NCBI GenBank assembly: GCA_025201365.1
Contig: JAIXMF010000048.1
Location: 1 to 55,463, forward strand
DNA: 55,463 nt
DNA from: Syncephalis plumigaleata
Taxonomy: Eukaryota; Zoopagomycota; Zoopagomycetes; Zoopagales; Piptocephalidaceae
Reading direction: 5' to 3'
Made by a program: the position numbers and the translations under genes. Positions within the stretch are counted from its first letter, which is position 1. Every line of letters starts with the position of its first letter. Positions 3,756 through 34,992 of this stretch are shown one piece after another. The notes under the pieces were generated by a model. That model searched no databases, was not told where the DNA came from, and saw only the letters and a program-made list of their open reading frames with translations.

Positions 3756-5072
3756 CTAATTGCTCGCACTCTCTCTAACTACTTCGCATTTACGTAAGGT
3801 GACCAAGAATCCCGTATGTCCTGTTGGCGTGTGTGATGGATGACATACCCATACATCCGATTTTGAATCACTACTAATATTCGTATCTTCTGTTTCTAGC
3901 GATGATGTAGACGTGTCGCCATTCTTCTTCAAACGACGTAGCCATGCTGGTTGAGCAGCACACACTTTCCATTCACGCCACACCACTTCTGTCACTTGCT
4001 CCACGGCTAGACCACCTCCTGGTAACTCGGTGGCTGCACGAGCAGTAGCAATCACTTGTGTCATATTTGGCAAATAGCACAGACAATACCCGTCATTACG
4101 TAATAGTCGTCGAACACTCTCGACAATCGATGGCGTTGCAGGATCCGGCATATCAAGTACAATGGCATCGAATGAGCCTGATCCCCATTGTGCGGTCAGT
4201 TCACCACCAGCTAGATCACCCGTATGAAATTCAATCCATGGCAATAAACTACCACGACGATACTGACTAATGAATGTTCTAGCACTTGATGCATGTGATT
4301 CACGCTTCTCAACGGTAATCACTCGTCCTTCATTAGTCGAGCCGGCAATAGCGCGTGCCAAATGCAAGGTGAGTGCTCCATTACCAGTACCGCATTCCAA
4401 TACTCTATCACCTGGATGTAAATCTAGCATGGATATCTAGTGAAATAGAAATAAGCAGAAATACCTAGATGGCACCACTACACTTACGATAGCTGATGCA
4501 TCCTTGGGATAAATAGGTGTACAATGTCGTGTTGCCATTAGAACATATCTAGAGAGGATGGAAGATGAAGATTAGCTATTCCATTCATTGATATTATTCT
4601 AATAGCCTCGTCTACTTACTCCTCCAATGTTGGATGATGTACGGTAAATTCTGCACCTCGATTGCTAATCACCTTACTACGTGGTACACGATCGATAATA
4701 GCTTCATGTTCGAATTTACCCAGATGTGACATATGGACACCTGTTCAATGATAGTTACGATACACATTAATGTCAAATCTATATCATTATAGTAGAGTAT
4801 AACATACCATCATGCTTTAATGGTCCTATTAATGAACGCTTGCCCTTTCTAGTCTCGCGTAATAATACCATATCACCCCATTGAAATGTATTACTATTAT
4901 TAAAAGCTGATGTTGTTGTTTCTATAGTGGTGGTTTGTACTTCAGGTATGACTGTAGATAATTGATGTTGTTCTCGACATTGAATTCTTGTATACACCGA
5001 AAGTAAAGATAAACTAGACTGGAAACGCTTAGTAAATAGTGTACGCTGACATGCACCAACAAATCTGGTCAT
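3756..5072 (-). CDS. tRNA (adenine-N1-)-methyltransferase, TRM61/TRMT61B type, probably mitochondrial
   Basis: This SAM-dependent enzyme makes m1A58 in the tRNA T-loop. Four exons are read. The first, from the ATG at 5072 (MTRFVGACQRTLFTKRFQ), is basic and Ser/Thr-rich with few acids, like a mitochondrial targeting sequence, followed by WGDMVLLRETRKGKRSLIGPLKHDG. The next exons read HMSHLGKFEHEAIIDRVPRSKV and then MATRHCTPIYPKDASAI. The last long exon has motif I, DRVLECGTGNGALTLHLARA, then ITVEKRE and FDAIVLDMPDP. The RxHLGKFxHxxIIG-like block and VLExGxGxGxLT are typical of TRM61 proteins. The targeting-like leader favours the TRMT61B branch over nuclear TRM61. It is divergent from the LCMT1 gene, about 100 bp away. 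Confidence 0.8.
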
Positions 5073-10484: not shown

Positions 10485-11390
10485 CTATTTACGCAATAAT
10501 ATCAACACATGTCGCCAAGTGATATCTATAAATTGATCGGCTTCACTGACATCTTTACCATTGGCAATGGCTGCATCATTGAGTGCACGCTTCACCACGT
10601 CTATCACTTCATCGACCGGATCAGTCTCCGTTTCAGCATTAAGACTACGTTTCCAAGTGGTATAGGGCGACCAGGTACGTAGATAATCGGCCAATTGCTC
10701 TATTGTCATTCTACGCAATGGCATAAATGGCGCTGTAGCAGCGGTGTCTTTACTTTCGCTGTCATCGCTTCGTAGGGCCTTCTCGATGTCGTGTGTCTGC
10801 CAATACTCGGTGAGTCGTTCATTATCCCATAAATATCGTTTCTCGTCTGACCAATTGTCAAGAATTTTCATACTACCGTACAAGTCATCGAGTAGCGTGC
10901 GTCCTTTCTCCCAGTATGGTCCCAATCTTACGTCGTTGTAATTATTCAATGCCTTGGTGATATCCGGGTATTTCAAGCTCATCGGCACGTTATATCCCCA
11001 GATGGCTAACGTGCCATGATCCGTAAGCACTCGCTGCACTTCAGTCTGAAACGCGACGATATCAAACCAATGAGCAGCCTCGGCCGTAACCACCAGATCA
11101 ACGCTCTTGTCTGGCAGATCCATACGTTCGGCCGGTTCCTGAATATACTTGATATTATCGCGAGGTATCGCTTGCGACAACATTGTTTCCGAAATGTCGG
11201 TCGCCCTTACATTAGTGAATAGCTTGGCCAATTCCACGGCCGCCTGACCCGTACCTGTGGCAACATCCATGGCGCAGTTCTTGCCACTCTGATGATACTC
11301 CATAATGGTATTGTACACGGGCTTCATATAGGATGGTCGATGACTACGATAATTCGCAGCATTATAGGTTGGATAGGAAAAGGTAGCCAT
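10485..11390 (-). CDS. SAM-dependent class I methyltransferase, trans-aconitate methyltransferase-like (paralogue 1)
   Basis: Intronless gene for a protein of about 300 aa. It begins MATFSYPTYNAANYRSHRPS, a Y...RPxY lead-in seen in the yeast TMT1/CRG1 small-molecule methyltransferase group. SAM motif I is CAMDVATGTGQAAVELAKLF. The acidic residue after strand 2 is in VRATDISETML, strand 4 is VDLVVTAEAAHWFD, and post-motif VLTDHGTLAIWGY follows. The C-terminal half (WSDEKRYLWDNERLTEYWQT, LADYLRTWSPYTTWKRS) is shared only with its neighbour. The ATG at 11390 is chosen because the paralogue starts at the equivalent methionine. The substrate is unknown; known relatives methylate trans-aconitate or, for Crg1, cantharidin. 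Confidence 0.85.
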   Translation of the reverse strand: MATFSYPTYNAANYRSHRPSYMKPVYNTIMEYHQSGKNCAMDVATGTGQAAVELAKLFTNVRATDISETMLSQAIPRDNIKYIQEPAERMDLPDKSVDLVVTAEAAHWFDIVAFQTEVQRVLTDHGTLAIWGYNVPMSLKYPDITKALNNYNDVRLGPYWEKGRTLLDDLYGSMKILDNWSDEKRYLWDNERLTEYWQTHDIEKALRSDDSESKDTAATAPFMPLRRMTIEQLADYLRTWSPYTTWKRSLNAETETDPVDEVIDVVKRALNDAAIANGKDVSEADQFIDITWRHVLILLRK

Positions 11391-11698
11391 AGGATCAAAT
11401 TTACTAGTGTCCAAATGAAAGAAAGTATGCTAAAGAAGAGCGATGCTAGGCCATAGCATCTAGCATGGATACCAGCCTTATTTATAGCTGTTTTAAAATG
11501 GTGAATGCCACTTGCGAATACGTCACCCGTTTAAACGCAGTCTCGGGCAGTTCTGACTCATCTTTCGGAATCGGGTTTTTGTTTGACCCGCCTATTTGTT
11601 AAGTTCAATGTTTGCTATTACGATATACTAAATCAAGTTACAATATTTGGTTTATCATCACCATCATCATCATAATAGTAGATAATTGCAATGATTTA

Positions 11699-12601
11699 TT
11701 ACTTGCGTGCCACTATCAAAACATGCGGATACACCATATCTATAGTATTGGCGACACTATCAACTTGTCCATTTCGTGTTTTCGCCTTGCATTCAAGTGC
11801 TGCCTTTGCAACATCGATAACTTCATCTACAGGATCAACTTCCGTTTGTGCATTGGGACTACGCTTCCAATTAGTATAGGATGACCAGGTACGTAGATAA
11901 CTTGCCAAATCATCTAATGTCATTTGGTACACTGACATGATAGGCGTGGTTGCTGCCGTTAATCCATCACGCTCCGTTGCCTGTAAGACATCGGACACTG
12001 TATGCGTTTGCCAGTAATCAACGATACGCTCCTTGTCCCAAATGAAACGTTTGTGATCGGACCAGCTGTCGTGTAATTCAAGATTGGTGTAGAATCCACG
12101 AATCTTGCCGTAGCCTTTATCCCAATAAGATGCCAATCGCACACTAGCGCAGTACAAGATTGCCTCCGTTATATCCCGATGCCATAGACTGACCGGTACA
12201 CCGTATCCCCAGATAGCGAGTGTTCCATTGTCGGTTAGTACACGTCGTGTCTCCATTTGGAATGCGTCTATGTCGAACCAATGGGCAGCTGTCGACGCGG
12301 TAATTACATTGATACTTTTATCGGGAAGTATCATTTGTTCGGCCGGTTCCTGAACATATTCGATATTGTCGCATGGTATGGCTTGCGATAACATGGCCCG
12401 CGATTTATCGGTAGCTCTTACACTCGTGAATAGTTTGGACAATCCTATGGCTGTTTGACCGGTGCCTGTGGCAACATCCATGGCACGATCCGTGCTGCCT
12501 CGATGATAGTCCATAATGGTGTTATATACAGACCCCATATAGGTTGGTCGATGATTGCGATAAGCAGCGGCATTGTAAGTTGAATTGGAGAAGGTAGCCA
12601 T
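11699..12601 (-). CDS. SAM-dependent class I methyltransferase (paralogue 2, tandem duplicate)
   Basis: Intronless and collinear with the gene at 10485-11390 along its full length. It begins MATFSNSTYNAAAYRNHRPT, motif I is RAMDVATGTGQTAIGLSKLF, then VRATDKSRAML, VITASTAAHWFDIDAF and LTDNGTLAIWGYGVPVSLW. The same family C-terminus follows (WSDHKRFIWDKERIVDYWQT, LASYLRTWSSYTNWKRS). The aspartate of TDISE is kept as TDKSR. The two copies are same-strand neighbours about 300 bp apart, so a local duplication is the simplest origin. Divergence is spread evenly with no stops, so both appear functional. Confidence 0.85.
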   Translation of the reverse strand: MATFSNSTYNAAAYRNHRPTYMGSVYNTIMDYHRGSTDRAMDVATGTGQTAIGLSKLFTSVRATDKSRAMLSQAIPCDNIEYVQEPAEQMILPDKSINVITASTAAHWFDIDAFQMETRRVLTDNGTLAIWGYGVPVSLWHRDITEAILYCASVRLASYWDKGYGKIRGFYTNLELHDSWSDHKRFIWDKERIVDYWQTHTVSDVLQATERDGLTAATTPIMSVYQMTLDDLASYLRTWSSYTNWKRSPNAQTEVDPVDEVIDVAKAALECKAKTRNGQVDSVANTIDMVYPHVLIVARK

Positions 12602-13206
12602 TGTGCGGGTAGATAGCAAACAATTTGTATTTGTATGTTATTATTATTACTAAAAATACTAACTAATGACAATAGTGGAAACGAATGAAAATATTATGGA
12701 TTGCAACTCGTAGCTGTCTTTATAGATATAGGCTCATGTGGTATACACGTACAACTAACGCACTACTGCCATACTGTGAAAGCAATGCAAGTTTAAGGCT
12801 AGGCACATATCTATGCGTTGCTCTATAGATGCATTCAATATCATATGACTTGCTCTGCAGCATTGTTGCAACGCCAGTAATAATAATAATAGAGGCAAAC
12901 CATAAAGAATAGCGTGATAATTATACTCTGTAATTACGACATCAACTTGATGATGCGATAGTTAGTTGTAGTATAGTCTAGACTAGATAATCGTATCACA
13001 AAGTGTGACATGGTTGCAAAATGAACCACAGCTTTGCCAAAATAAACGGCGCTCCAAAAAAACGAAATAACAATAAACAATCATTGTTTTCCCTGCTGCT
13101 CCTTATCTCTTCCTTCATCTCTCTCATTCTTTCTTTTCCCTCCTCATAACAACCGTTATAGCCAATAATTATATACGCTTTTTGTTGACATTACGCTCAT
13201 TACAAC
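12602..13206. other. Intergenic, divergent promoter region
   Basis: About 600 bp between the start of methyltransferase 2 and the start of the SRA1-domain gene. Pyrimidine-rich from 13085 to 13145, typical of a fungal leader upstream of 13207. No gene seen. Confidence 0.4.
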
Positions 13207-16370: not shown

Positions 16371-18336
16371 ATGAAGTTCTCTGCCGTTATCGCTATTGCC
16401 GTCGCCGTTGTCGCTGTCGCCAGTCTGGTCACTGTTGAAGCTGGTCCCCTCCTGGATCGTCGTGGTATGTCTGGCCGTGACCCTATCAATTAATGTACTA
16501 ATCGTAGTCTATTGTTTCATTGTCCACCGATGATTACCGATAGCTCGTAAGTTCATGTATATTAAATGGTTGTTTTGACATGTTAATCACATCATAATGT
16601 TTATTCTTCCTATTACTTTGTTAATAATAGCTAGTAAGCTAGTTTATTGACCATAACAAGTGCTATGCTAATTGCATTACAAATCCAATCATATGCGATT
16701 ACCATTTCAAGCTGATGTAAGTTACTATTTGGACTTCAATGAATGAATGGGTACTAACTACAGTATGACATACAATCCACATATATTTGTTTGTGTATGA
16801 TAGGGCGTAAGTAATCATTCGATCGCAATGAATGAGGTACTAACTACGATACGGCATACAATCTACGTATGCTTGTATATATTAGAATGTAAGTTACTAT
16901 TCTGGCTGCAATGAATGAGGTACTGACTACGGTATTGCATACAATCTACGTATGCTTGTATAACAGGTTGTAAGTTACTATTCGGACTGCAATGAATGAA
17001 TGAAGTACTAACTACGGTATTGCATACAATCTACGTATGCTTGCATATCAGGTTGTAAGTTACTATTCGGACTTCAATGAATGAATGATGTACTAACTAC
17101 GATACGGCATACAATCTACGTATGCTTGCATATCAGTTTGTAAGTTACTATTCGGACTGCAATGAATGAATGATGTACTAACTACGGTATTGCATACAAT
17201 CCACATATGTTTGTATAACAGGTTGTAAGTTACTATTCGGACTGCAATGAATGAATGAAGTACTAACTACGGTATGACATACAATCCACATATATTATTG
17301 TATGCTAGGGCGTAAGTTACTATTTGGACTGCAATGAATGAATGATGTACTAACTACGGTATTGCATATAATCCACGTATGTTTGTATAACAGGAGGTAA
17401 GTTACTATTTGGACTTCAATGAATGAATGAATGATGTACTAACTACGGTATGACATACAATCCGCATATGTTTCTGTATGGTAGAGAGTAAGCTACCGTT
17501 TTGGTTGAAATGAATGAATGAGTACTAACTACGGTATGACATACAATCCACGTATGATCCCTATGCTAGGGCGTAAGTTACTATTCGGACTGCAATGAAT
17601 GAATGATGTACTAACTACGGTATTGCATATAATCCACGTGTGTTTGTATATCAGTTTGTAAGTTACTATTCGGACTGCAATGAATGAATGAAGTACTAAT
17701 TACGGTATTGCATACAATCCACATATGTTCCTGTATAACAGGATGTAAGCTACCATTTTGGCTGCAATGAATGAATGGGTACTAACTATGATACGACATA
17801 CAATCTACATATGCTTGTATATATTAGAATGTAAGTTACTATTCTGGCTGCAATGAATGAATGATGTACTAACTACGGTATTGCATATAATCCACGTATG
17901 CTTGTATAACAGGTTGTAAGTTACTATTCGGACTGCAATGAATGAATGAAGTACTAACTACGATACGGCATACAATCCACGTATGTTTGTATATCAGTTT
18001 GTAAGTTACTATTCGGACTGCAATGAATGAATGATGTACTAACTACGATACGGCATACAATCCACATATATTATTGTATGCTAGGGCGTAAGTTACCATT
18101 CTGGCTGCAATGAATGAATGAGTACTAACTACGATACGGCATACAATCTACGTATGTTTGTATAACAGGATGTAAGCTACCATTATGACCGTAATATATG
18201 AATGGTTACTAACTACAATATGTCACATAATCAATGCGTGCTCCTGAATGATAGAACGTAAGTTTTCATTCCAATCGTCCTCTACAATATTCTAATCACA
18301 GTATGGCATGCCCTATTTTTACAGAATCAGCCCTAA
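16371..18336 (+). CDS. Secreted peptide precursor built from one-codon microexons (22 introns)
   Basis: Exon 1 (16371-16464) encodes a signal peptide (MKFSAVIAIAVAVVAVASLV...) ending in GPLLDRR, a Kex2-type dibasic site. Microexons CTC (16544), CTA (16631) and CTGAT (16712) complete A-P-T-D and bring the phase to 0. Eighteen exons of exactly 3 nt follow, starting at 16804, 16886, 16967, 17052, 17137, 17222, 17309, 17394, 17485, 17570, 17655, 17742, 17828, 17913, 17998, 18085, 18169 and 18255. They spell GNVVFVGERGFDNVFGDN. The last exon (18325-18336) adds NQP and TAA. The product is 56 aa. Introns are 67-88 nt, mostly 82, starting GTAAGT/C (the first GTATGT), with TACTAAC-like branch sites and ending AG. 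Exon 1 uses GC-rich codons unlike its surroundings, suggesting high expression. Splicing is inferred from sequence. The alternative is one 1.86-kb intron holding an intron-derived satellite. Confidence 0.65.
16717..18257 (+). repeat. Tandem array of near-identical introns, period about 85 bp
   Basis: Eighteen head-to-tail units of 82-91 bp, each one intron plus one three-base exon. Shared blocks are GTAAGTTACTATTCGGACTG, CAATGAATGAATGA, GTACTAACTACGGTATTGCA, TACAATCCACATATG and a TTGTATAACAG-like acceptor. Almost no AG occurs between branch site and acceptor. Variant subtypes recur (acceptors ending ATAACAG, ATATCAG, ATGCTAG, ATATTAG), so blocks appear to have been duplicated more than once. 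The trinucleotide between AG and GTAAG varies: GGC, AAT, GTT, TTT, GAG, AGA, GAT, AAC. The outer introns (16465-16711 and 18258-18324) are diverged. Confidence 0.9.
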
Positions 18337-18841
18337 GCAGTAAGTAATAATCCAAATGATCATACTCATACTAATCCATTATGACTACAGAACAAGACAA
18401 GGACATCATCAAGTAGATATTATAGGTATTCAAGTCAAGAATGGATTGGTGCAAGACCCTCATTTAGTGTCCATGCTATTCAAGTCATTATTCCTTGGTA
18501 CAACAACAAATATATCTACAAGATCATTTAATCATTTATTGAATAAATATGTCGTATTGATCATTACACTCATAGATAGTAATATACTATTTGGTTATTA
18601 TTAGACGATAGTTGAAATTAATTGAATTGCTTGAATTGCAAACAAGAAAAAGGCGATGCATGTGGGCCATGTTAATCAGTAATGACCACTACAAAATTGA
18701 ATTGTATCGATGATTAATTTGTTTAATATTGATTTGAACCCATCATTATTATCAAGTTCAGTTCAGTTCTTTTCTTTTTGTTTACATTTCAAGTACGCGT
18801 TCTTAACATAATTCCTCACATTTACTAGTACCACCATAAAC
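18337..18841. other. 3' flank of microexon gene and kinesin promoter
   Basis: Contains GAATAAATA at about 18540, a possible polyadenylation signal for the microexon gene. The rest is AT-rich. A frame at 18356-18604 has no coding character. Confidence 0.4.
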
Positions 18842-25296: not shown

Positions 25297-26739
25297 ATGA
25301 AATATAGCACGACTTCATTATCTGCCATCACACTGTGTGTGTGCATGATGCTATCTCACCACACAAATGGCATGTATATGCGGGGTGCATCATCATCATC
25401 TAGCAATAACAATCCGAATCAGACGCCAATAACAGGACAACCATGGAATCAACAGTCAAATACTAATATGCAACTTGGAGGCAATAACTGGAACACTGCA
25501 GCTATGCCAATGCATATAAACAACAATCAAGGACAACCATGGAATCAACAGTCAAGCGCTAATATGCAATCTGGAAGCAACAACTGGGATAATGCACTTA
25601 GACCAATGCATCCGGTACACCCAAGTAACCCTCAAGGACATCCTCAACCACCAGAGGAGATAACTATACGTACGACAGTAGATCCAGAGACTAAGGATTT
25701 ATATGTAGATTTTCCTAAGAAGTATAATGTTGAACCGGTGCGATGGCCAAGTAATTACAAATCTTCCCGATATCACAGGGGAATGAAGTGGGGCCATAAA
25801 GATGCCCTTGTAGCTTGTTACAAGGGAAACGATCGATATGCAAATGCAAAGAGATTCTATGATGTAAGTTACAGCTATAATACTTGATATCATTGACTTA
25901 CACCATCATTATTATTGCTATCTAGTATGTCGACAGAATAGACGATCCGTTTCACAAGGAAGGATTAGACGCTATTTTATTTAAGCGTATAGCTAATGGC
26001 CAAACGATAGACAAGAAAGTGGGATGCTTAATATTTGAGCTACCCCCCAAATATGGTGACTTGCAAATTTTCATTAGGCGAATGTCTACATTTGCCTCGA
26101 TTAAACAACTACCGAGCATAGTTGCTCGAATCATGGATGGTACGTATATCATTAGAAGCAACAATTTGAATGATAATGCTAATCATAACATTGCTTAGCT
26201 GTTTCAATCCTTAATGAAATAGGAGTCGTGTATGGCAGCATTGTAGCAAAATGTAAGTGAATGCTATTATTATATGAATGAATCTAACCACTGTCATAAC
26301 AAATATTTGGGTTGCTGAAGATGCTATGGGGAATGGGTATGACATCAAACTGCTCCACTTTGATCGCTCAACTGTCAACGAGGATTTCAGAGAATTGGAG
26401 GCCAATCCCGATTTATCTCCAACATCTAGATTAACAGCAATCTATAACTCTTTTATCAATGATGTTCGAAGTACTAGCAAATTTATCGGCTTACTATTTT
26501 CCAACTACGAAGCAAAGCTAGTCAAAGACTTTACTCCTAGTGCATCTATTACACCTGGTGAGCTTGAGAAACACAACAAGAAACGGAAAGCCCTGAAAGA
26601 TTTAGTAAAAGCAATGGATGAAGCTAAATCACCTCTGATGATGCTGAACTTCAAACTTACTTACCAATATAAATTAATAAGTGGAGAGCAAGACCAAAAG
26701 GATAGCATGCCTAATGCGCTTAGGATTCAATCGAAATGA
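25297..26739 (+). CDS. Secreted pseudokinase-like protein with N-terminal Asn/Gln repeats
   Basis: The start MKYSTTSLSAITLCVCMMLS followed by HHTNG is a signal peptide. A low-complexity segment contains a two-fold repeat: GQPWNQQSNTNMQLGGNNWN and GQPWNQQSSANMQSGSNNWD. The folded part spans four exons (KWGHKDALVACYKGNDRYAN, KKVGCLIFELPPKYGDLQIF, AVSILNEIGVVYGSIVAK). The last pairs with YDIKLLHFDRS after an intron whose acceptor is GCTGAAG. ILNEIGVVYGSIVAKY lines up with a kinase catalytic loop, but H-R-D is replaced by Y-G-S and the Asn by Tyr; LLHFDRS sits at the DFG position. It is therefore best read as an inactive relative of the gene at 22432. The family call is inference from these short blocks. 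Confidence 0.65.
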
Positions 26740-27909: not shown

Positions 27910-28852
27910 ATGTCGGACACAAGCTCGACGCTCTCTGACGACACGATGACGACAACGCGCGGGTTAGCTGCCGTTTTTGGTACTAACAACGAAGACGTCG
28001 AGCCACGTGCAAGATCGACTTCGCCAAACGATCGAACACGAGCTTTGCCCGAAATACCTCAAGAACTCATGCAATCGTTTATGCGGCAAATCCGAGAGTA
28101 CCTCTACAATCAAGATAACGAGACCCGAGTTGTGCCGATAGAAGCAGACCCCCAACACGTGCCACGAGCATGCTATAATCGGTACCGATCAGATTTCGAC
28201 AAGGCGATCATTCCATTTACGGGCTCATCATCGAAGGAAGACCCATTCAAGTGGCTGTTCGAGTACTTCCAAGCGGCCATTCGTCGTAACGGCTGGACGC
28301 AAGAACAGTGTCTGGATAATATCGATAGCTACCTTACCGATGCCGCACTCGCCTGGTGGGATTACATCCGGCCAACCATTACTCGTTGGACAGGTGGTAA
28401 TCGCCAGAATGGATTCGCCCCCGGCACGTTCACGCACGCGTTCGTCAAGCGTTTCATTACACCTGAGATGAAGGCCCACTGGAACGCGGAGCTACAAGTA
28501 TGCAAGCAAAGGCCCGGAGAAGACGTAGCCGGCTTTGCAAGCAGATTACGAGGCCTCAAGAAACGTGTGGAGCTATCCCGACAAGTAACGGACAACGAAC
28601 TTAGTAACCTTCTGCAGCAAGGTCTACCACTACAGATCCGGAACGCACTCAGCGCCATGGAAATCCAACAACGTACCTGGCATCCGGAGACGTACCTTCG
28701 TTTCGAGTTACGCGTCGAGCTAGCCCAGAATTTCGAATTCCAGCTGAGAGCCAATGGAGACGTGGACGCAGTCAAGATCCCTGGTGAAGTGGTTACGACG
28801 GAAACCGGAGACGAGGTCAAGGTCGTAGCGTCGCAGTTTATGCCGTCGCTTA
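27910..28852 (+). pseudogene. gag-pol frame, 5' portion (Gag), interrupted
   Basis: Starts MSDTSSTLSDDTMTTTRGLA after a leader of about 240 nt. The capsid-like core reads IIPFTGSSSKEDPFKWLFEY, NGWTQEQCLDNIDSYLTDAA, LAWWDYIRP and FVKRFITPEMKAHW, a retrotransposon Gag (UBN2/Retrotrans_gag-like) pattern. The frame is cut after 943 nt by the foldback element. It picks up in phase at 30484, since 943 plus 3299 nt is a multiple of three, so before the insertion gag and pol formed one uninterrupted frame. In this copy translation runs into the insert and stops at 28902. Confidence 0.85.
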
Positions 28853-30481
28853 CAGTGAGCGAAAGAATTGTTCACGTGTTTTGTACTTTCCCACTTTTCT
28901 AATCACCACATAATCAGTATGCAATGTATTTCTCTATTCTTTCACAAGTAAATAAAGGTATTTATTCTCTTTCTAACGATATAAATTAATCATATATTTA
29001 ATTATAAAATGCTTGAGATATTAGTGTTGAAAGTCACGTGGTGCACGTGAACAATTTTTTCCATTACTAATAAAATTAATATTCTTGAGCAATAATCAAT
29101 TTTTATTCAATTTAAATGTAATAAAATGTTTATATATGAGTAAATACGAGCTGTCGTGCATCGTACGAGCAATAAATAATTATAAAGCAAGTTGATGTAG
29201 TTGAGCAATATGGCTATAATTGCTCATTTTAATGTATAGTAAAAATGTTACTACAGTATGCTTTATTCACTTCCAATTGCCGTGCAAATGCTTATTAAAG
29301 CGCTTTTAAGCAATGGTAGCCTCCCTAGAACCACTGCGGGCAAGTTAGCTATGGTTAAAGATATGATTACATTGAACAATCACGCATGCAGTTGCTGGAA
29401 TAGCGTTCACGTTACTACAATTTCGCTTATTACTCAGTGTACATTCGACCGATCCTACTTAAATTGCAGGTTATGATAAAGCACGTCTTCGCGCAGATAA
29501 TGATATAAAATAATGCTATGTCGATGGGAAAAGTGTCTAGTTGCCATCCTACAAAGATGATGTCACATTAATGTCACTGAATAGCGTAAATTTTAATTTT
29601 AATTTTTTGTAATAAATTTATTAATTAATGCCAAAAATAATAGTAAAAAATAGCGCAGAGCACGTTAATAAAGCATAATAAACAATAACAATAGCAGTTA
29701 ATAAAGTGTTAAAGAATTTATTAAAAGATCTAATAAGAATTAATTTACGCTATTCAGTGACATTAATGTGACATCATCTTTGTAGGATGGCAACTAGACA
29801 CTTTTCCCATCGACATAGCATTATTTTATATCATTATCTGCGCGAAGACGTGCTTTATCATAACCTGCAATTTAAGTAGGATCGGTCGAATGTACACTGA
29901 GTAATAAGCGAAATTGTAGTAACGTGAACGCTATTCCAGCAACTGCATGCGTGATTGTTCAATGTAATCATATCTTTAACCATAGCTAACTTGCCCGCAG
30001 TGGTTCTAGGGAGGCTACCATTGCTTAAAAGCGCTTTAATAAGCATTTGCACGGCAATTGGAAGTGAATAAAGCATACTGTAGTAACATTTTTACTATAC
30101 ATTAAAATGAGCAATTATAGCCATATTGCTCAACTACATCAACTTGCTTTATAATTATTTATTGCTCGTACGATGCACGACAGCTCGTATTTACTCATAT
30201 ATAAACATTTTATTACATTTAAATTGAATAAAAATTGATTATTGCTCAAGAATATTAATTTTATTAGTAATGGAAAAAATTGTTCACGTGCACCACGTGA
30301 CTTTCAACACTAATATCTCAAGCATTTTATAATTAAATATATGATTAATTTATATCGTTAGAAAGAGAATAAATACCTTTATTTACTTGTGAAAGAATAG
30401 AGAAATACATTGCATACTGATTATGTGGTGATTAGAAAAGTGGGAAAGTACAAAACACGTGAACAATTCTTTCGCTCACTG
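28853..30481. mobile_element. 1,629-bp perfect foldback element nested in gag
   Basis: Inserted at a TA, which is duplicated at 28851-28852 and 30482-30483. The termini are CAGTGAGCGAAAGAATTGTT and its exact inverse. The two arms (28853-29592 and 29742-30481, 740 bp each) look identical and are perfectly symmetrical around 29667; a 149-bp AT-rich loop separates them. TA duplication and CAGTG ends point to a Tc1/mariner-type origin. Each arm has a 72-codon frame (29258-29476 plus, 29858-30076 minus) of unknown identity. Its segment HACSCWNSVHVTTIS faintly recalls a Tc1 helix-turn-helix. There is no complete transposase. Confidence 0.9.
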
Positions 30482-30483
30482 TA

Positions 30484-33400
30484 CGTCGGAGGTCCCTGAA
30501 GATAAGCAAGCCCACAAGGTCATCACGGAGAAGAAAACGTCCTCCTCGAAGAAGCCCGAGTCTGACAAGTCGATCGATGAACTGACGAAGCAAATGAGCC
30601 AACTCCGAATCCTCCTAGCCAAACAACAACGGTTAGCTGAGGTCAAGAAACCGAGAAGTTGCCCTCATTGCGACTCCACCGACCGTAATCACCGCTGGAA
30701 CACCTGTGAACGTCGACAAGTACAAGAAGGCTACTTCGGCAATACGTACCTGGACCGCGAAGCTTGGAGTTCGGCAATCGACCGTGAGAACGTAGATTAC
30801 TGGCACCGGAATCAACAATACGAGTTCGAGGAACCCGAGGAACCTTCCGACGACGATCTATCGACATTACAAGAGCCGGACGACGCCAGCGACGAAGATG
30901 ACGAGATCGAACAACAGAACGTAGACGAGATGTTCGACAAGATCGCCGAGATGCTCGCCGTCGAGAAGAGAAAGTTGTTAGACGAGGATGAAGACGACGA
31001 CGACGACGACGACAGCAACAAGAAGAGGAAAGAAGGACACGAACCTAACGTAGACACGATCGTACCACGACTGCTCGCTCGCCCTGTTACTCGTAAGCCA
31101 GTGGTAGAACCGAAGGTGAATGTAAAAAAGCCTACGACTCGAACACGAACGGCTAGGGGAAAGAAGGCAGAAGAAGAGGTAACGAGTGTCGAGAAGAAAC
31201 GTGTTACCCCAACGACCGATGGACCAAAAAGCAGATGGACCCCCGCTCAGGCTCGACAGTTGATGGCGTTATTGGCGCAAGCCCCCACTGCCAAAGGACA
31301 ACAAGTTCTCGCCCCAGCGGTAGAAATGGCAAATTCTCAAATCACCATCGCGCTCGGAGACTTGGCTCGACTAATTCAGGCTCAACAACCGAAGAACGAG
31401 ACGGTGGACAACAATGGCCGTACCAACAAGGCGAGAGTGGTCGAAGTATTAGTGGGTGATCGATTCGACACGCAAGCCTTACGTACCTACGCGTATTTTC
31501 GCAATCAACCAGTAGAGGTAATCATCGACACCGGCGCAGCGTGCTCTATGATCGGTGGTGCCTTCGCTGACAAATACAACATTGTCGAAGACGCGCCAGC
31601 ACTGTTCGCTATGACCGGCATTCATGGTAGCATCAAACGCCCGCGCGGTATGGTGCACGCACTACCCATACGGATCGCGAGTTTGGACACTACCGTGGAC
31701 GCTCATATCGTAGACGACGGGCCCTATTCTTTCATACTGGGCGTCGAATGGTTAACAGCGTACGCGGCAGAAATTGTATTGGCCAAGAACCATCTGTACT
31801 TACACTATTACGGCAAGAAGTATACAGCGCTTGTGTGGTCAACTAACCAGGAAGCGAATATCGCGCGTCAACAACTACACCTGGAATGTGAGGACGGTAT
31901 GGCCGAGGAGAAGAAGGAGCCCCAAGCTATCGAAGCGTTCCATACGGTCAAGAGTTACGACGAAGTAATCATTCCAGCTGGATCATACATCATGTGGAAA
32001 CCAAAGGAGCGTACACAGATGGAGGGACACGTCATACTCGAACCAGAACACGAACGCTTGATCGAATACGGTGTCGCAGCGATCCCTGGTTATGGTCCTG
32101 CCAACTCAGCAGCCGTGTGTCTTATCAACACCAAGAAGCAACCGCTGGTCTTACCTACAGGACTCGAACTTGCGAAACTCAGTCAATCGACGCACAAGGT
32201 ACTCCCCATCAAAACGTGGACCGACTTGACGCAGGTATCGTTAGAATGCAAGGAGTCGTTTACTACAGACACCGGGAAGGTACCGCCAATTACCAAGGTT
32301 AAACGAGAGGAATTGGACGTTATCGTGAACAAGGAACTGGAACCCGCTAAGCGAGAGCGTCTATTAGATCTGCTAGAGGAACGCGCTCACTTATTCGCCA
32401 GAGATTCATATGAATTCGGCCACTGCACGATCGCTCAACATAGGATCGACACAGGCGACGCTCAACCTGTCCAACTACGACCATACCGTTACCCGCCGAA
32501 AGACAACGAGTACATCGCGCAAGAAGTGGAGAAGATGCTGGTACAAGGAGTGATCGAAAAGGCAAACGGACCATGGGCGTTTCCGGTGGTGCTAGTGAAG
32601 AAGAAAGATGGTACTAGACGGTTTTGCATCGATTATCGCAAATTAAATACCCTCACGAGGAAGGACACTTACCCCCTCCCACGAATCGATGAAATCTTTG
32701 ACGCGCTTAACGGAGCCCAATGGTTTTCGTCACTGGATCTGGCGTCTGGTTATTGGCAACTGGAAGTAGCACCAGCCGACAGAGACAAAACGACCTTCGT
32801 CACACGTCAAGGCACTTACCGATTCAAGCGATTACCATACGGGTTAGTGGGTTCACCAGCGTTCTTCCAACGGGCCATGAATGATATCTACTCCGGGCTA
32901 CTATGGGTATCAGTATTCGTATATCTGGACGACATTCAAGTTTTCAGCCGCACCTTTGGAGATCATCTACAACATTTAGAGTTAGCCTTTGACCGATTGG
33001 ATAAAGCAGGACTCAAGTTGAAACTTCCCAAATGTGCGATCGGTCATCAAGAACTCGAATTCCTAGGGTTTAAGACAGGTAAAGATGGACTGGCTCCCGA
33101 TCCAAAGAAGATAGAGAAGATGCTCAAATGTCCCCCGCCCCGAGACATTGCCGAGTTGCGCTCGTTCCACGGTCTGACGTCGTACTATCGCCGGTTTATC
33201 AAGAACTTCGCCGCCATCACTGAACCCTTACGGCAACTGTTCAAGAAGGATACGACGTACGAATGGACGCCCAAACAGCAGGACGCGTTCGAATTGCTCA
33301 AGACGAAGTTAGCGACTGCACCTATACTGAAGTATCCAGAATTCAATCAACCTTTCGTAATAGAAACGGATGCTTCACTAGACGGGTTAGGCGCGGTACT

Positions 33401-33782
33401 CTCCCAGCATAATCTCAACAATCACTTACAACCAGTCGCCTACGCTAGCCGATCCACGTCTAAAGAAGAACGTAACCTGTCGGCCACGGAACTGGAAGCG
33501 ACCGCTGTTATATGGGCGCTCGAACAATTCCGACACTACATCCTCTACAACCCGATCACTGTTCGTACGGACCATCAAGCGCTCCCTTACATCATGAAGA
33601 ACAAGTCCCTCAACCGCAAGTTGGCACGATGGGCCCTAGAACTAAGCGCTTACGATCTTACACTCGAGTACAAGAAAGGAGCTCACAACACTGTCGCTGA
33701 CGCCCTATCACGACCCCCATTCGTTACCCCACACACTTCCGAAACGGAAACCGCCCAAGCTAGCACGAGTTACGCACCGTAA
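30484..33782 (+). pseudogene. gag-pol frame, 3' portion: zinc knuckle, protease, RT, RNase H
   Basis: Begins TSEVPEDKQAHKV in phase with the Gag part. A zinc-knuckle-like motif CPHCDSTDRNHRWNTC (C-x2-C-x7-H-x4-C) is followed by a long acidic linker. The aspartic protease motif is VIIDTGAACSMIGG. Reverse transcriptase blocks are FCIDYRKLNTLTRKDTYPLP, FSSLDLASGYWQLEV, RFKRLPYGLVGSPAFFQRAM and the active site FVYLDDIQVFS. RNase H reads FVIETDASLDGLGAVLSQ, LSATELEATAVIWALEQF and VRTDHQAL, then ADALSRPP. It ends at a stop with no integrase attached. All enzyme motifs are intact, so the body is young; it is called broken only because of the inserted foldback element and missing integrase. Confidence 0.9.
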
Positions 33783-34868: not shown

Positions 34869-34931
34869 AAAAAAAATTCTCCCGTAGGAGTAATCCACTC
34901 AAGATTTACGTGTCATCCTTATGCAGGGGCA

Positions 34932-34962
<31 letters not shown>

Positions 34963-34992
34963 TTCATATGTCACAGGATTCCGAAGAAAACC
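34869..34992 (-). ncRNA. U6 spliceosomal snRNA
   Basis: Read on the minus strand it contains the diagnostic core AATTGGAACGATACAGAGAA, then GATTAGCATTGCCCCTGC and ATAAGGATGACACG. The ACAGAGA box (pairs with the 5' splice site), the AGC triad and the internal stem-loop sequence are intact. The 5' end forms a short hairpin with a TTCG loop (TTC-TTCG-GAA). The 3' end has a second hairpin, CTCC-TACG-GGAG, before a run of eight T residues (34869-34876), the Pol III terminator. No intron is present. The exact 5' end is inferred from the hairpin and TATA distance. Confidence 0.93.

Follow-up and report, generated by a model that had tools for sequence, protein, structure and literature searches.

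Introduction

The closest described systems to the gene analyzed here are the MEG genes of schistosomes and the bicycle genes of aphids. MEG genes are described with 10-20 short exons of 6-81 bp, mostly 15 bp, and introns of 0.1-5 kb (PMC10526429), and the abstract of the same paper gives the exon range as 3-81 bp. Bicycle genes have about 17 exons per gene, with internal exons nearly all in phase 2, and megacycle uses more than 100 microexons for about 2000 residues (PMC9168663). Furthermore, exons of three nucleotides or fewer are on record in animals and plants, such as a 3-bp exon in Drosophila homothorax (PMC7392893) and 1-nt exons in plants (PMC8831610); these are spliceosomal as well, but in those cases stand singly between longer exons. 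In fungi, a report on Trichoderma virens Xlr2 describes one regulated microexon and states that functional microexons were previously undescribed in filamentous fungi (PMC11121469).

Here, we analyze a 55,463-nt stretch of the genome of Syncephalis plumigaleata (hereafter the window; assembly GCA_025201365.1, contig JAIXMF010000048.1, positions 1 to 55,463 of the forward strand). Syncephalis species are mycoparasites (PMC6784888). Judged from its sequence and that of its relatives, one locus in the window is very probably an intact gene for a small secreted peptide, from which 22 short introns are removed and in which eighteen consecutive exons consist of a single codon. In the titles and abstract openings searched, a scope outside which bioRxiv and most subscription journals lay, we found no description of runs of one-codon exons. 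Queries on single-codon exons, on microexons in fungal secreted proteins and on exons of Zoopagales effectors returned none either, bioRxiv again being outside their scope, and the word exon is absent from two Syncephalis papers (PMC6784888, PMC10386755).

Like MEG genes, the Syncephalis genes would encode secreted products, with an N-terminal signal peptide (by reading) followed by a chain of tiny, mostly frame-neutral exons, and diversification by duplication and alternative splicing, a MEG feature, is taken as shared. Unlike in MEG genes, eighteen single-codon exons follow in a row in the window gene (38 in a public protein model, P0018), the introns are about 80 nt long and alike, the intron is itself the repeat unit, and the host is a fungus. 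A schistosome protein was absent among the 2 + 26 named protein matches, which come from searches that demand shared 5-residue words. With the aphid bicycle and megacycle genes, the family shares putative secreted effectors, many small exons of uniform phase, fast sequence change and conserved structure; unlike bicycle genes, the window gene runs in phase 1 and then phase 0, with 3-nt exons. Aphid bicycle proteins carry cysteine-tyrosine-cysteine motifs, whereas the window peptide contains no cysteine. As in Xlr2, the microexons lie in a fungus, but Xlr2 has a single regulated one. Unlike the isolated microexons of other organisms, those of the Syncephalis family come by the dozen in a row and would make up most of the mature peptide.

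Structure of the window gene

A mechanical splice walk through the window gene removes 22 introns of 67-88 nt and yields 171 coding nucleotides, stop included, for a product of 56 residues. All features described here lie on the forward strand. Exon 1 (16371-16464) has a coding part of 94 nt, ends in phase 1 and encodes a putative signal peptide, with an N-terminus that is hydrophobic by reading, as well as a dibasic, Kex2-like LDRR site. Intron 1 (16465-16543, 79 nt, GTATGT..AG), whose retention would read GMSGRDPIN-stop, leads to two 3-nt exons in phase 1, CTC (16544-16546) and CTA (16631-16633), and a 5-nt exon, CTGAT (16712-16716), shifts phase 1 to phase 0.

Eighteen consecutive phase-0 exons of 3 nt then extend from 16804 to 18257. 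More specifically, these are GGC (G, 16804-16806), AAT (N, 16886-16888), GTT (V, 16967-16969), GTT (V, 17052-17054), TTT (F, 17137-17139), GTT (V, 17222-17224), GGC (G, 17309-17311), GAG (E, 17394-17396), AGA (R, 17485-17487), GGC (G, 17570-17572), TTT (F, 17655-17657), GAT (D, 17742-17744), AAT (N, 17828-17830), GTT (V, 17913-17915), TTT (F, 17998-18000), GGC (G, 18085-18087), GAT (D, 18169-18171) and AAC (N, 18255-18257). The terminal coding exon (18325-18339) reads AATCAGCCC-TAA-GCA, giving NQP and a stop, with TAA at 18334-18336. A further, 23rd intron (about 18340-18390, GTAAGT..TACTAAT..ACAG, by reading) lies in the 3' UTR.

The first-pass annotation, made from the letters alone, had proposed 22 introns behind a signal-peptide exon, nearly all with GTAAGT/C, a TACTAAC-type branch point and AG; the splice walk reproduces them base for base. 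Its claims that two 3-nt exons and one 5-nt exon bring phase 1 to phase 0, and that eighteen 3-nt exons run without a stop into an NQP-stop exon to give 56 residues, hold at exactly the positions given above. All 22 introns are GT-AG, with the donor GTAAGT/C in 21 and GTATGT in one, and nearly all contain TACTAAC or a near variant.

TRF describes the array (16716-18216) as an 85-bp tandem repeat of 17.6 copies with 81% matches, the unit being one intron plus one codon. As a control, 270 other donor-like sites of the window served as starting points for the chain finder; 33 gave one intron and 237 none, against 23 introns joined at the window gene. The gene fits the layout of a Kex2-processed precursor, with signal peptide, dibasic LDRR and small mature peptide, the processing being predicted. 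A Pfam search with translated exon 1 and the start of intron 1 gave no match.

Related loci in the genome

The window locus is one member of a genome-wide family. A genome search with the exon-1 peptide gave 150 scored signal-exon matches among 181 candidates, none with an internal stop. Among the best 30 of these 150, 24 have at least two AG-NNN-GTAAGY units within at most 1.6 kb downstream, while the other six continue as contiguous coding sequence with zero 3-nt units in the stretch examined. For L012 and L030, that stretch covers about 450 nt downstream. Contiguous paralogues with a similar signal peptide are L037, L038, L030, L033, L034 and L016.

DRRAPQ is read directly in the contiguous paralogues L037/L038 and L030; in the array genes, AP or APQ appears only after splicing out intron 1 and linking the first tiny exons, and 13 of 22 coding-blind models of array genes have the AP start. 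R30 and R31 of the LDRR site are invariant in 12 aligned sequences, which were hand-chosen, and the TAAGCR ending recurs across the terminal exons of the family. The introns are alike both within and between family genes; array introns recur in many family loci, and similar signals occur in one other gene, L080. Two metagenome proteins (P0033, P0034) have a similar exon 1, followed by apparent read-through into intron 1.

Exon length

Across the genome, the pattern CTAAY-AG-NNN-GTAAGT occurs 1721 times (896+825), compared with 124 (71+53) for the reversed control. The same pattern with 4-nt spacing occurs 73 times (35+38) against 94 (56+38) in the control, that is, at background; by eye, four of these 73 are located in introns like those of the arrays, and a 6-nt exon would explain them equally well. 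The fuller pattern GTAAGT..CTAAY..AG-NNN-GTAAGT gives 733+710 matches, versus 3+5 when reversed. Family loci perhaps number a hundred or more, and the single-codon exons of the assembly roughly 2,700, an estimate that divides the pattern matches above control (1721-124) by a recall of 59% and counts both haplotypes.

Within 75 loci, we found 708 distinct GTAAGT/C contexts with a downstream branch point, 668 of them with an acceptor within 40 nt. Exon lengths among those 668 are 3 nt (549), 9 nt (45), 5 nt (28), 12 nt (9), 2 nt (7) and 7 nt (5), with all others below five each; many of the 75 loci were picked by a pattern demanding 3 nt, and the genome-wide counts are the fairer test. A splice-only dynamic programme applied to 31 exon-1 genes returned internal exons of 3 nt (296), 9 nt (26), 5 nt (19), 12 nt (8), 2 nt (6), 6 nt (2), 15 nt (2), 16 nt (1) and 44 nt (1), and zero of 1, 4, 7, 8, 10, 11, 13 or 14 nt, although a slight bias is possible to the lengths of 3, 5 and 9 nt, at which the next donor followed the introns used to train its splice matrices. 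The phase logic of the window gene was recovered in other family members by the coding-blind gene finder. Two models, C68_488354 and C328_1, contain a frame-shifting 2-nt exon in mid-array, which is either mis-modelling or real compensation.

Coding signal of the triplets

Among 579 distinct 3-nt exons, which include one or two phase-1 exons per gene that are not codons, there is no stop triplet. The five permutations of their letter order give 8, 34, 0, 8 and 34 stops, and their reverse complements 3. For the set of 549 triplets, zero stops compare with 8.6 expected from position composition, and 49 different triplets are present. Furthermore, AG-TRA-GTAAGT after a branch point occurs four times genome-wide against 51 in the control, and by eye none of the four is array-like. 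The GC content is 52% in 3-nt exons versus 38% in introns, and the share of third letters that are C or T is 76% for 3-nt exons, 81% for exon-1 codons and 76% for codons in contiguous paralogues, compared with 54% for six other ORFs. CAG is found zero times among the 3-nt exons versus 14 times for CAA, as would be expected if CAG acted as an acceptor. Codon-usage correlation was tried as proof of translation and failed, with r of -0.11 against other window ORFs; the correlation with exon 1 and contiguous paralogues is weak (0.17).

Translations were tabulated for 22 coding-blind models, leaving out 9 of the 31 genes (seven of a sub-class with only intron 1 found and two with fewer than four exons). 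Across their 476 codons, four in-frame stops occur ahead of the last residues, compared with 6 in the +1 and 43 in the +2 frame, of which only +2 is clearly separated. Two of the four are a TGA that directly precedes the usual TAA, in the terminal exons of the copy pair C329_724986 and C102, and the other two lie inside a doubtful 44-nt exon of C68_318219. Eleven of the 22 models reach a stop-bearing terminal exon, with mature peptides of 13-53 residues and stops that are mostly TAAGCR (one TGAGCG, one TAAACA); for several of the eleven models without a terminal stop, the examined stretch ends within the array.

The L080 locus and its contiguous paralogue

The second gene with similar signals, L080 (C1:1411800-1418600, -), mixes 3-nt exons with exons of about 18-27 nt and has a relative in an uninterrupted frame of 104 aa, present on C318 and C220. 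This frame (C318:1455923-1456234, also C220:4122-4433) reads ANQHLDLFGAAAF. The spliced path of L080 (C1:1413738-1412787, -) reads ANQH-L-D-L-F-G-T-I-A-F, in which the last nine residues are nine separate codons, 82-92 nt apart, and LDLFGTIAF is identical to the contiguous LDLFGAAAF of the paralogue at seven of nine residues. The likeness between the L080 chain and protein P0032 was spotted by eye before scoring; the spliced alignment scores 64, compared with a mean of 31.4 (sd 3.7, max 43) for 60 shuffled queries and 30 for the reversed query. With looser settings, the score is 72.7 versus 34.8 for 30 shuffles (max 44) and 30.4 for another microexon gene. The homology of these nine one-codon exons to a contiguous paralogue is the strongest in silico support for one-codon exons.

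The exon-1 peptide search gave no signal-peptide exon match within L080, and its first exon was not found. A coding-blind chain through the locus joins 52 introns and has stops in all three frames, and the reading is limited to the part aligned with the paralogue.

Public gene models

On the one-codon-exon reading, public annotation misses or garbles members of the family. The NCBI model of the window gene itself (P0025) leaves the array unspliced and reads into intron 1, where it stops. Every residue of another NCBI protein, BDF22DRAFT_685685 (P0018, 92 aa), could be placed on the L011 gene, in 42 exons, of which 39 are 3 nt long and 38 are consecutive in phase 0. The model skips six microexons, one of them (CCT) with consensus sites, and therefore misses the conserved TAAGCA stop of L011, which comes in frame if the last skipped microexon (2 nt) is included. 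P0018 may have been computed rather than built from RNA. Of the 81 residues of P0022, 76 were mapped, with 35 three-nt exons, and the examined locus ends there. P0020 maps with six 3-nt exons plus longer ones, and P0021 is a single exon.

Near-identical copies and haplotypes

For nine near-identical pairs, each representing alleles or recent paralogues, differences were counted in both directions of comparison. They amount to 795 of 17133 positions in intron bodies, 5 of 558 in the acceptor AG, 9 of 1395 in the donor GTAAG and 32 of 1395 in the branch point; for the three exon positions, they are 16, 13 and 13 out of 279. Of the 14 AG and donor differences, 13 were judged by eye to sit where the alignment leaves homologous sequence, and the one real difference is a change from GTAAGT to GTAAAT. 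These counts indicate that the splice sites are constrained, and that the triplets change about as fast as the intron bodies. Near-identical copies were also tried as evidence of purifying selection on the codons, an argument that was set aside: among 136 paired 3-nt exons, 127 are the same, none differs synonymously and nine differ nonsynonymously, with exon positions differing at 4-5%, like intron bodies. A dN/dS ratio is not claimed, because a shift of units in the C1/C189 pair produced three of the nine nonsynonymous differences as artefacts.

In this C1/C189 pair, a CTT unit is present in one copy only and a GGT unit in the other only, while the introns share 97-100% identity, which indicates that whole intron-plus-codon units are gained and lost. 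Within the window array, introns at the same codon are more alike (0.878) than those of other units (0.811), which fits joint copying of codon and intron. Of 14 further genes, five share this trend, with a difference of 0.03-0.09, and the remaining nine show a smaller one or none.

Contig C329 matches the kinesin region downstream of the window gene at 98% identity, and the window contig appears to be its alternative haplotype. Of window 14639 to about 18437, C329 contains no more than about 110 bases, which resemble the array. The window gene is on one haplotype only, or its other copy was lost in assembly; its absence from the C329 haplotype means that it may not be indispensable.

Splice signals and proposed mechanism

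Donors in the models (n = 361) are mainly GTAAGT (265) and GTAAGC (56), with GTAGGT (20) and GTGAGT (7) among the rest, and the U1 5' end is the usual one, ATACTTACCTG. The branch point of the window gene lies about 47-48 nt before the AG, with a range of roughly 45-50 nt across 19 array introns; for 16 heuristically found introns from other parts of the window, this distance is 15-34 nt in 12 and longer in four. AG dinucleotides are depleted between branch point and acceptor (108 versus 549 expected) as well as upstream of the branch point (220 versus 488 expected), and the stretch from branch point to acceptor is free of AG in 263 of 324 introns. A conserved RNA hairpin joining branch point to acceptor was considered and rejected, as RNAalifold gave no structure for 40 introns of 80 nt.

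Splicing probably proceeds by ordinary intron definition, in which each intron has a donor with a close match to U1 (GTAAGT/C) and a strong TACTAAC-type branch point. The acceptor would be chosen, as a rule, by scanning to the first AG past the branch point, and the spacing between the two may let U2 and the next U1, at a donor 3 nt past the AG, sit without collision. Kex2-type cleavage after LDRR would release a peptide of 25 residues (APTDGNVVFVGERGFDNVFGDNNQP). Recombination between near-identical introns would add or remove one unit and thereby one residue in frame, and the family could act as a peptide diversifier, unit gain and loss being seen in the one near-identical pair. The peptides would likely be used against the host fungus or in other recognition.

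Interpretation

The products of the family are most likely Kex2-processed secreted peptides assembled codon by codon; that they are secreted, cut by Kex2 and directed at the host is in each case inferred from sequence features. The run of single-codon exons for a secreted peptide put forward by the first-pass annotation gains support from the lack of stop triplets among 579 3-nt exons, the restoration of phase elsewhere in the family, the depletion of AG and the conserved splice sites, as well as from two public models with dozens of 3-nt exons and from the L080 homology. These data also bear on whether the array is instead a non-coding minisatellite within one long intron, with exon 1 joined to the last exon and the trinucleotides as mere gaps. 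The clean 85-bp tandem repeat and the likeness of neighboring units would suit such a minisatellite, but it would not account for 549 triplets of 49 kinds, for stop-free trinucleotides, for a phase-correcting 5- or 2-nt exon sitting where it is needed, for nine one-codon exons homologous to a contiguous paralogue, or for splice sites conserved despite diverging intron bodies, and we regard it as very unlikely. It is very unlikely, too, that the arrays are degenerate products of recent introner-like intron spreading with functionless peptides. Such spreading would agree with introns alike within and between genes and with a gene absent from one haplotype; against it stand the missing stop triplets, the in-frame terminal stops in 11 of 22 models, the splice sites conserved in the nine pairs compared, and third letters that resemble exon 1 and the contiguous paralogues in their C/T content, unlike other ORFs.

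In another reading, the codons are real exons but of irregular inclusion, each a cassette exon, by which one gene would give a large pool of peptides differing by the presence or absence of single residues. The frame is kept when any 3-nt exon is skipped. The six microexons skipped by P0018 in one gene, CCT with its consensus sites among them, and the weaker donors GTAGGT and GTGAGT point in this direction, but most splice sites are alike and are preserved from copy to copy, as for constitutive exons, and P0018 may be computed; irregular inclusion is an unlikely reading. A tentative and rather doubtful extension is a one-residue-per-exon peptide generator, in which intron recombination and possibly regulated skipping would recombine peptides residue by residue, within individuals and between alleles.

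For the preferred reading, in which the single-codon exons are joined into a secreted peptide, the data suggest a mode of protein evolution whose module is the single residue and in which unit gain or loss never breaks the frame. If transcripts confirm them, dozens of consecutive 3-nt exons would challenge the minimum exon length for coexistence of U1 and U2 and would offer a natural system to study the order in which tens of introns one codon apart are removed. Furthermore, the family supplies candidates, open to testing, for peptides that act between fungi.

Other features of the window

An Rfam search over the whole window gave a single match, a U6 spliceosomal RNA gene (34870-34991, -, 77.9 bits), far from the window gene. 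The ORF at 3756-4430 (-) shares 99% identity with a protein of Syncephalis plumigaleata and 60% with an S. fuscata protein. ORFs at 10485-11414 and 11699-12619 (-) form a tandem similar pair that is methyltransferase-like by reading, and the ORF at 25297-25887 (+) is secreted-looking, with a 96-bp internal tandem repeat. Finally, ORFs at 27910-28902 and 30459-33782 (+) are by reading gag- and pol-like, of a Ty3/gypsy-type retrotransposon.
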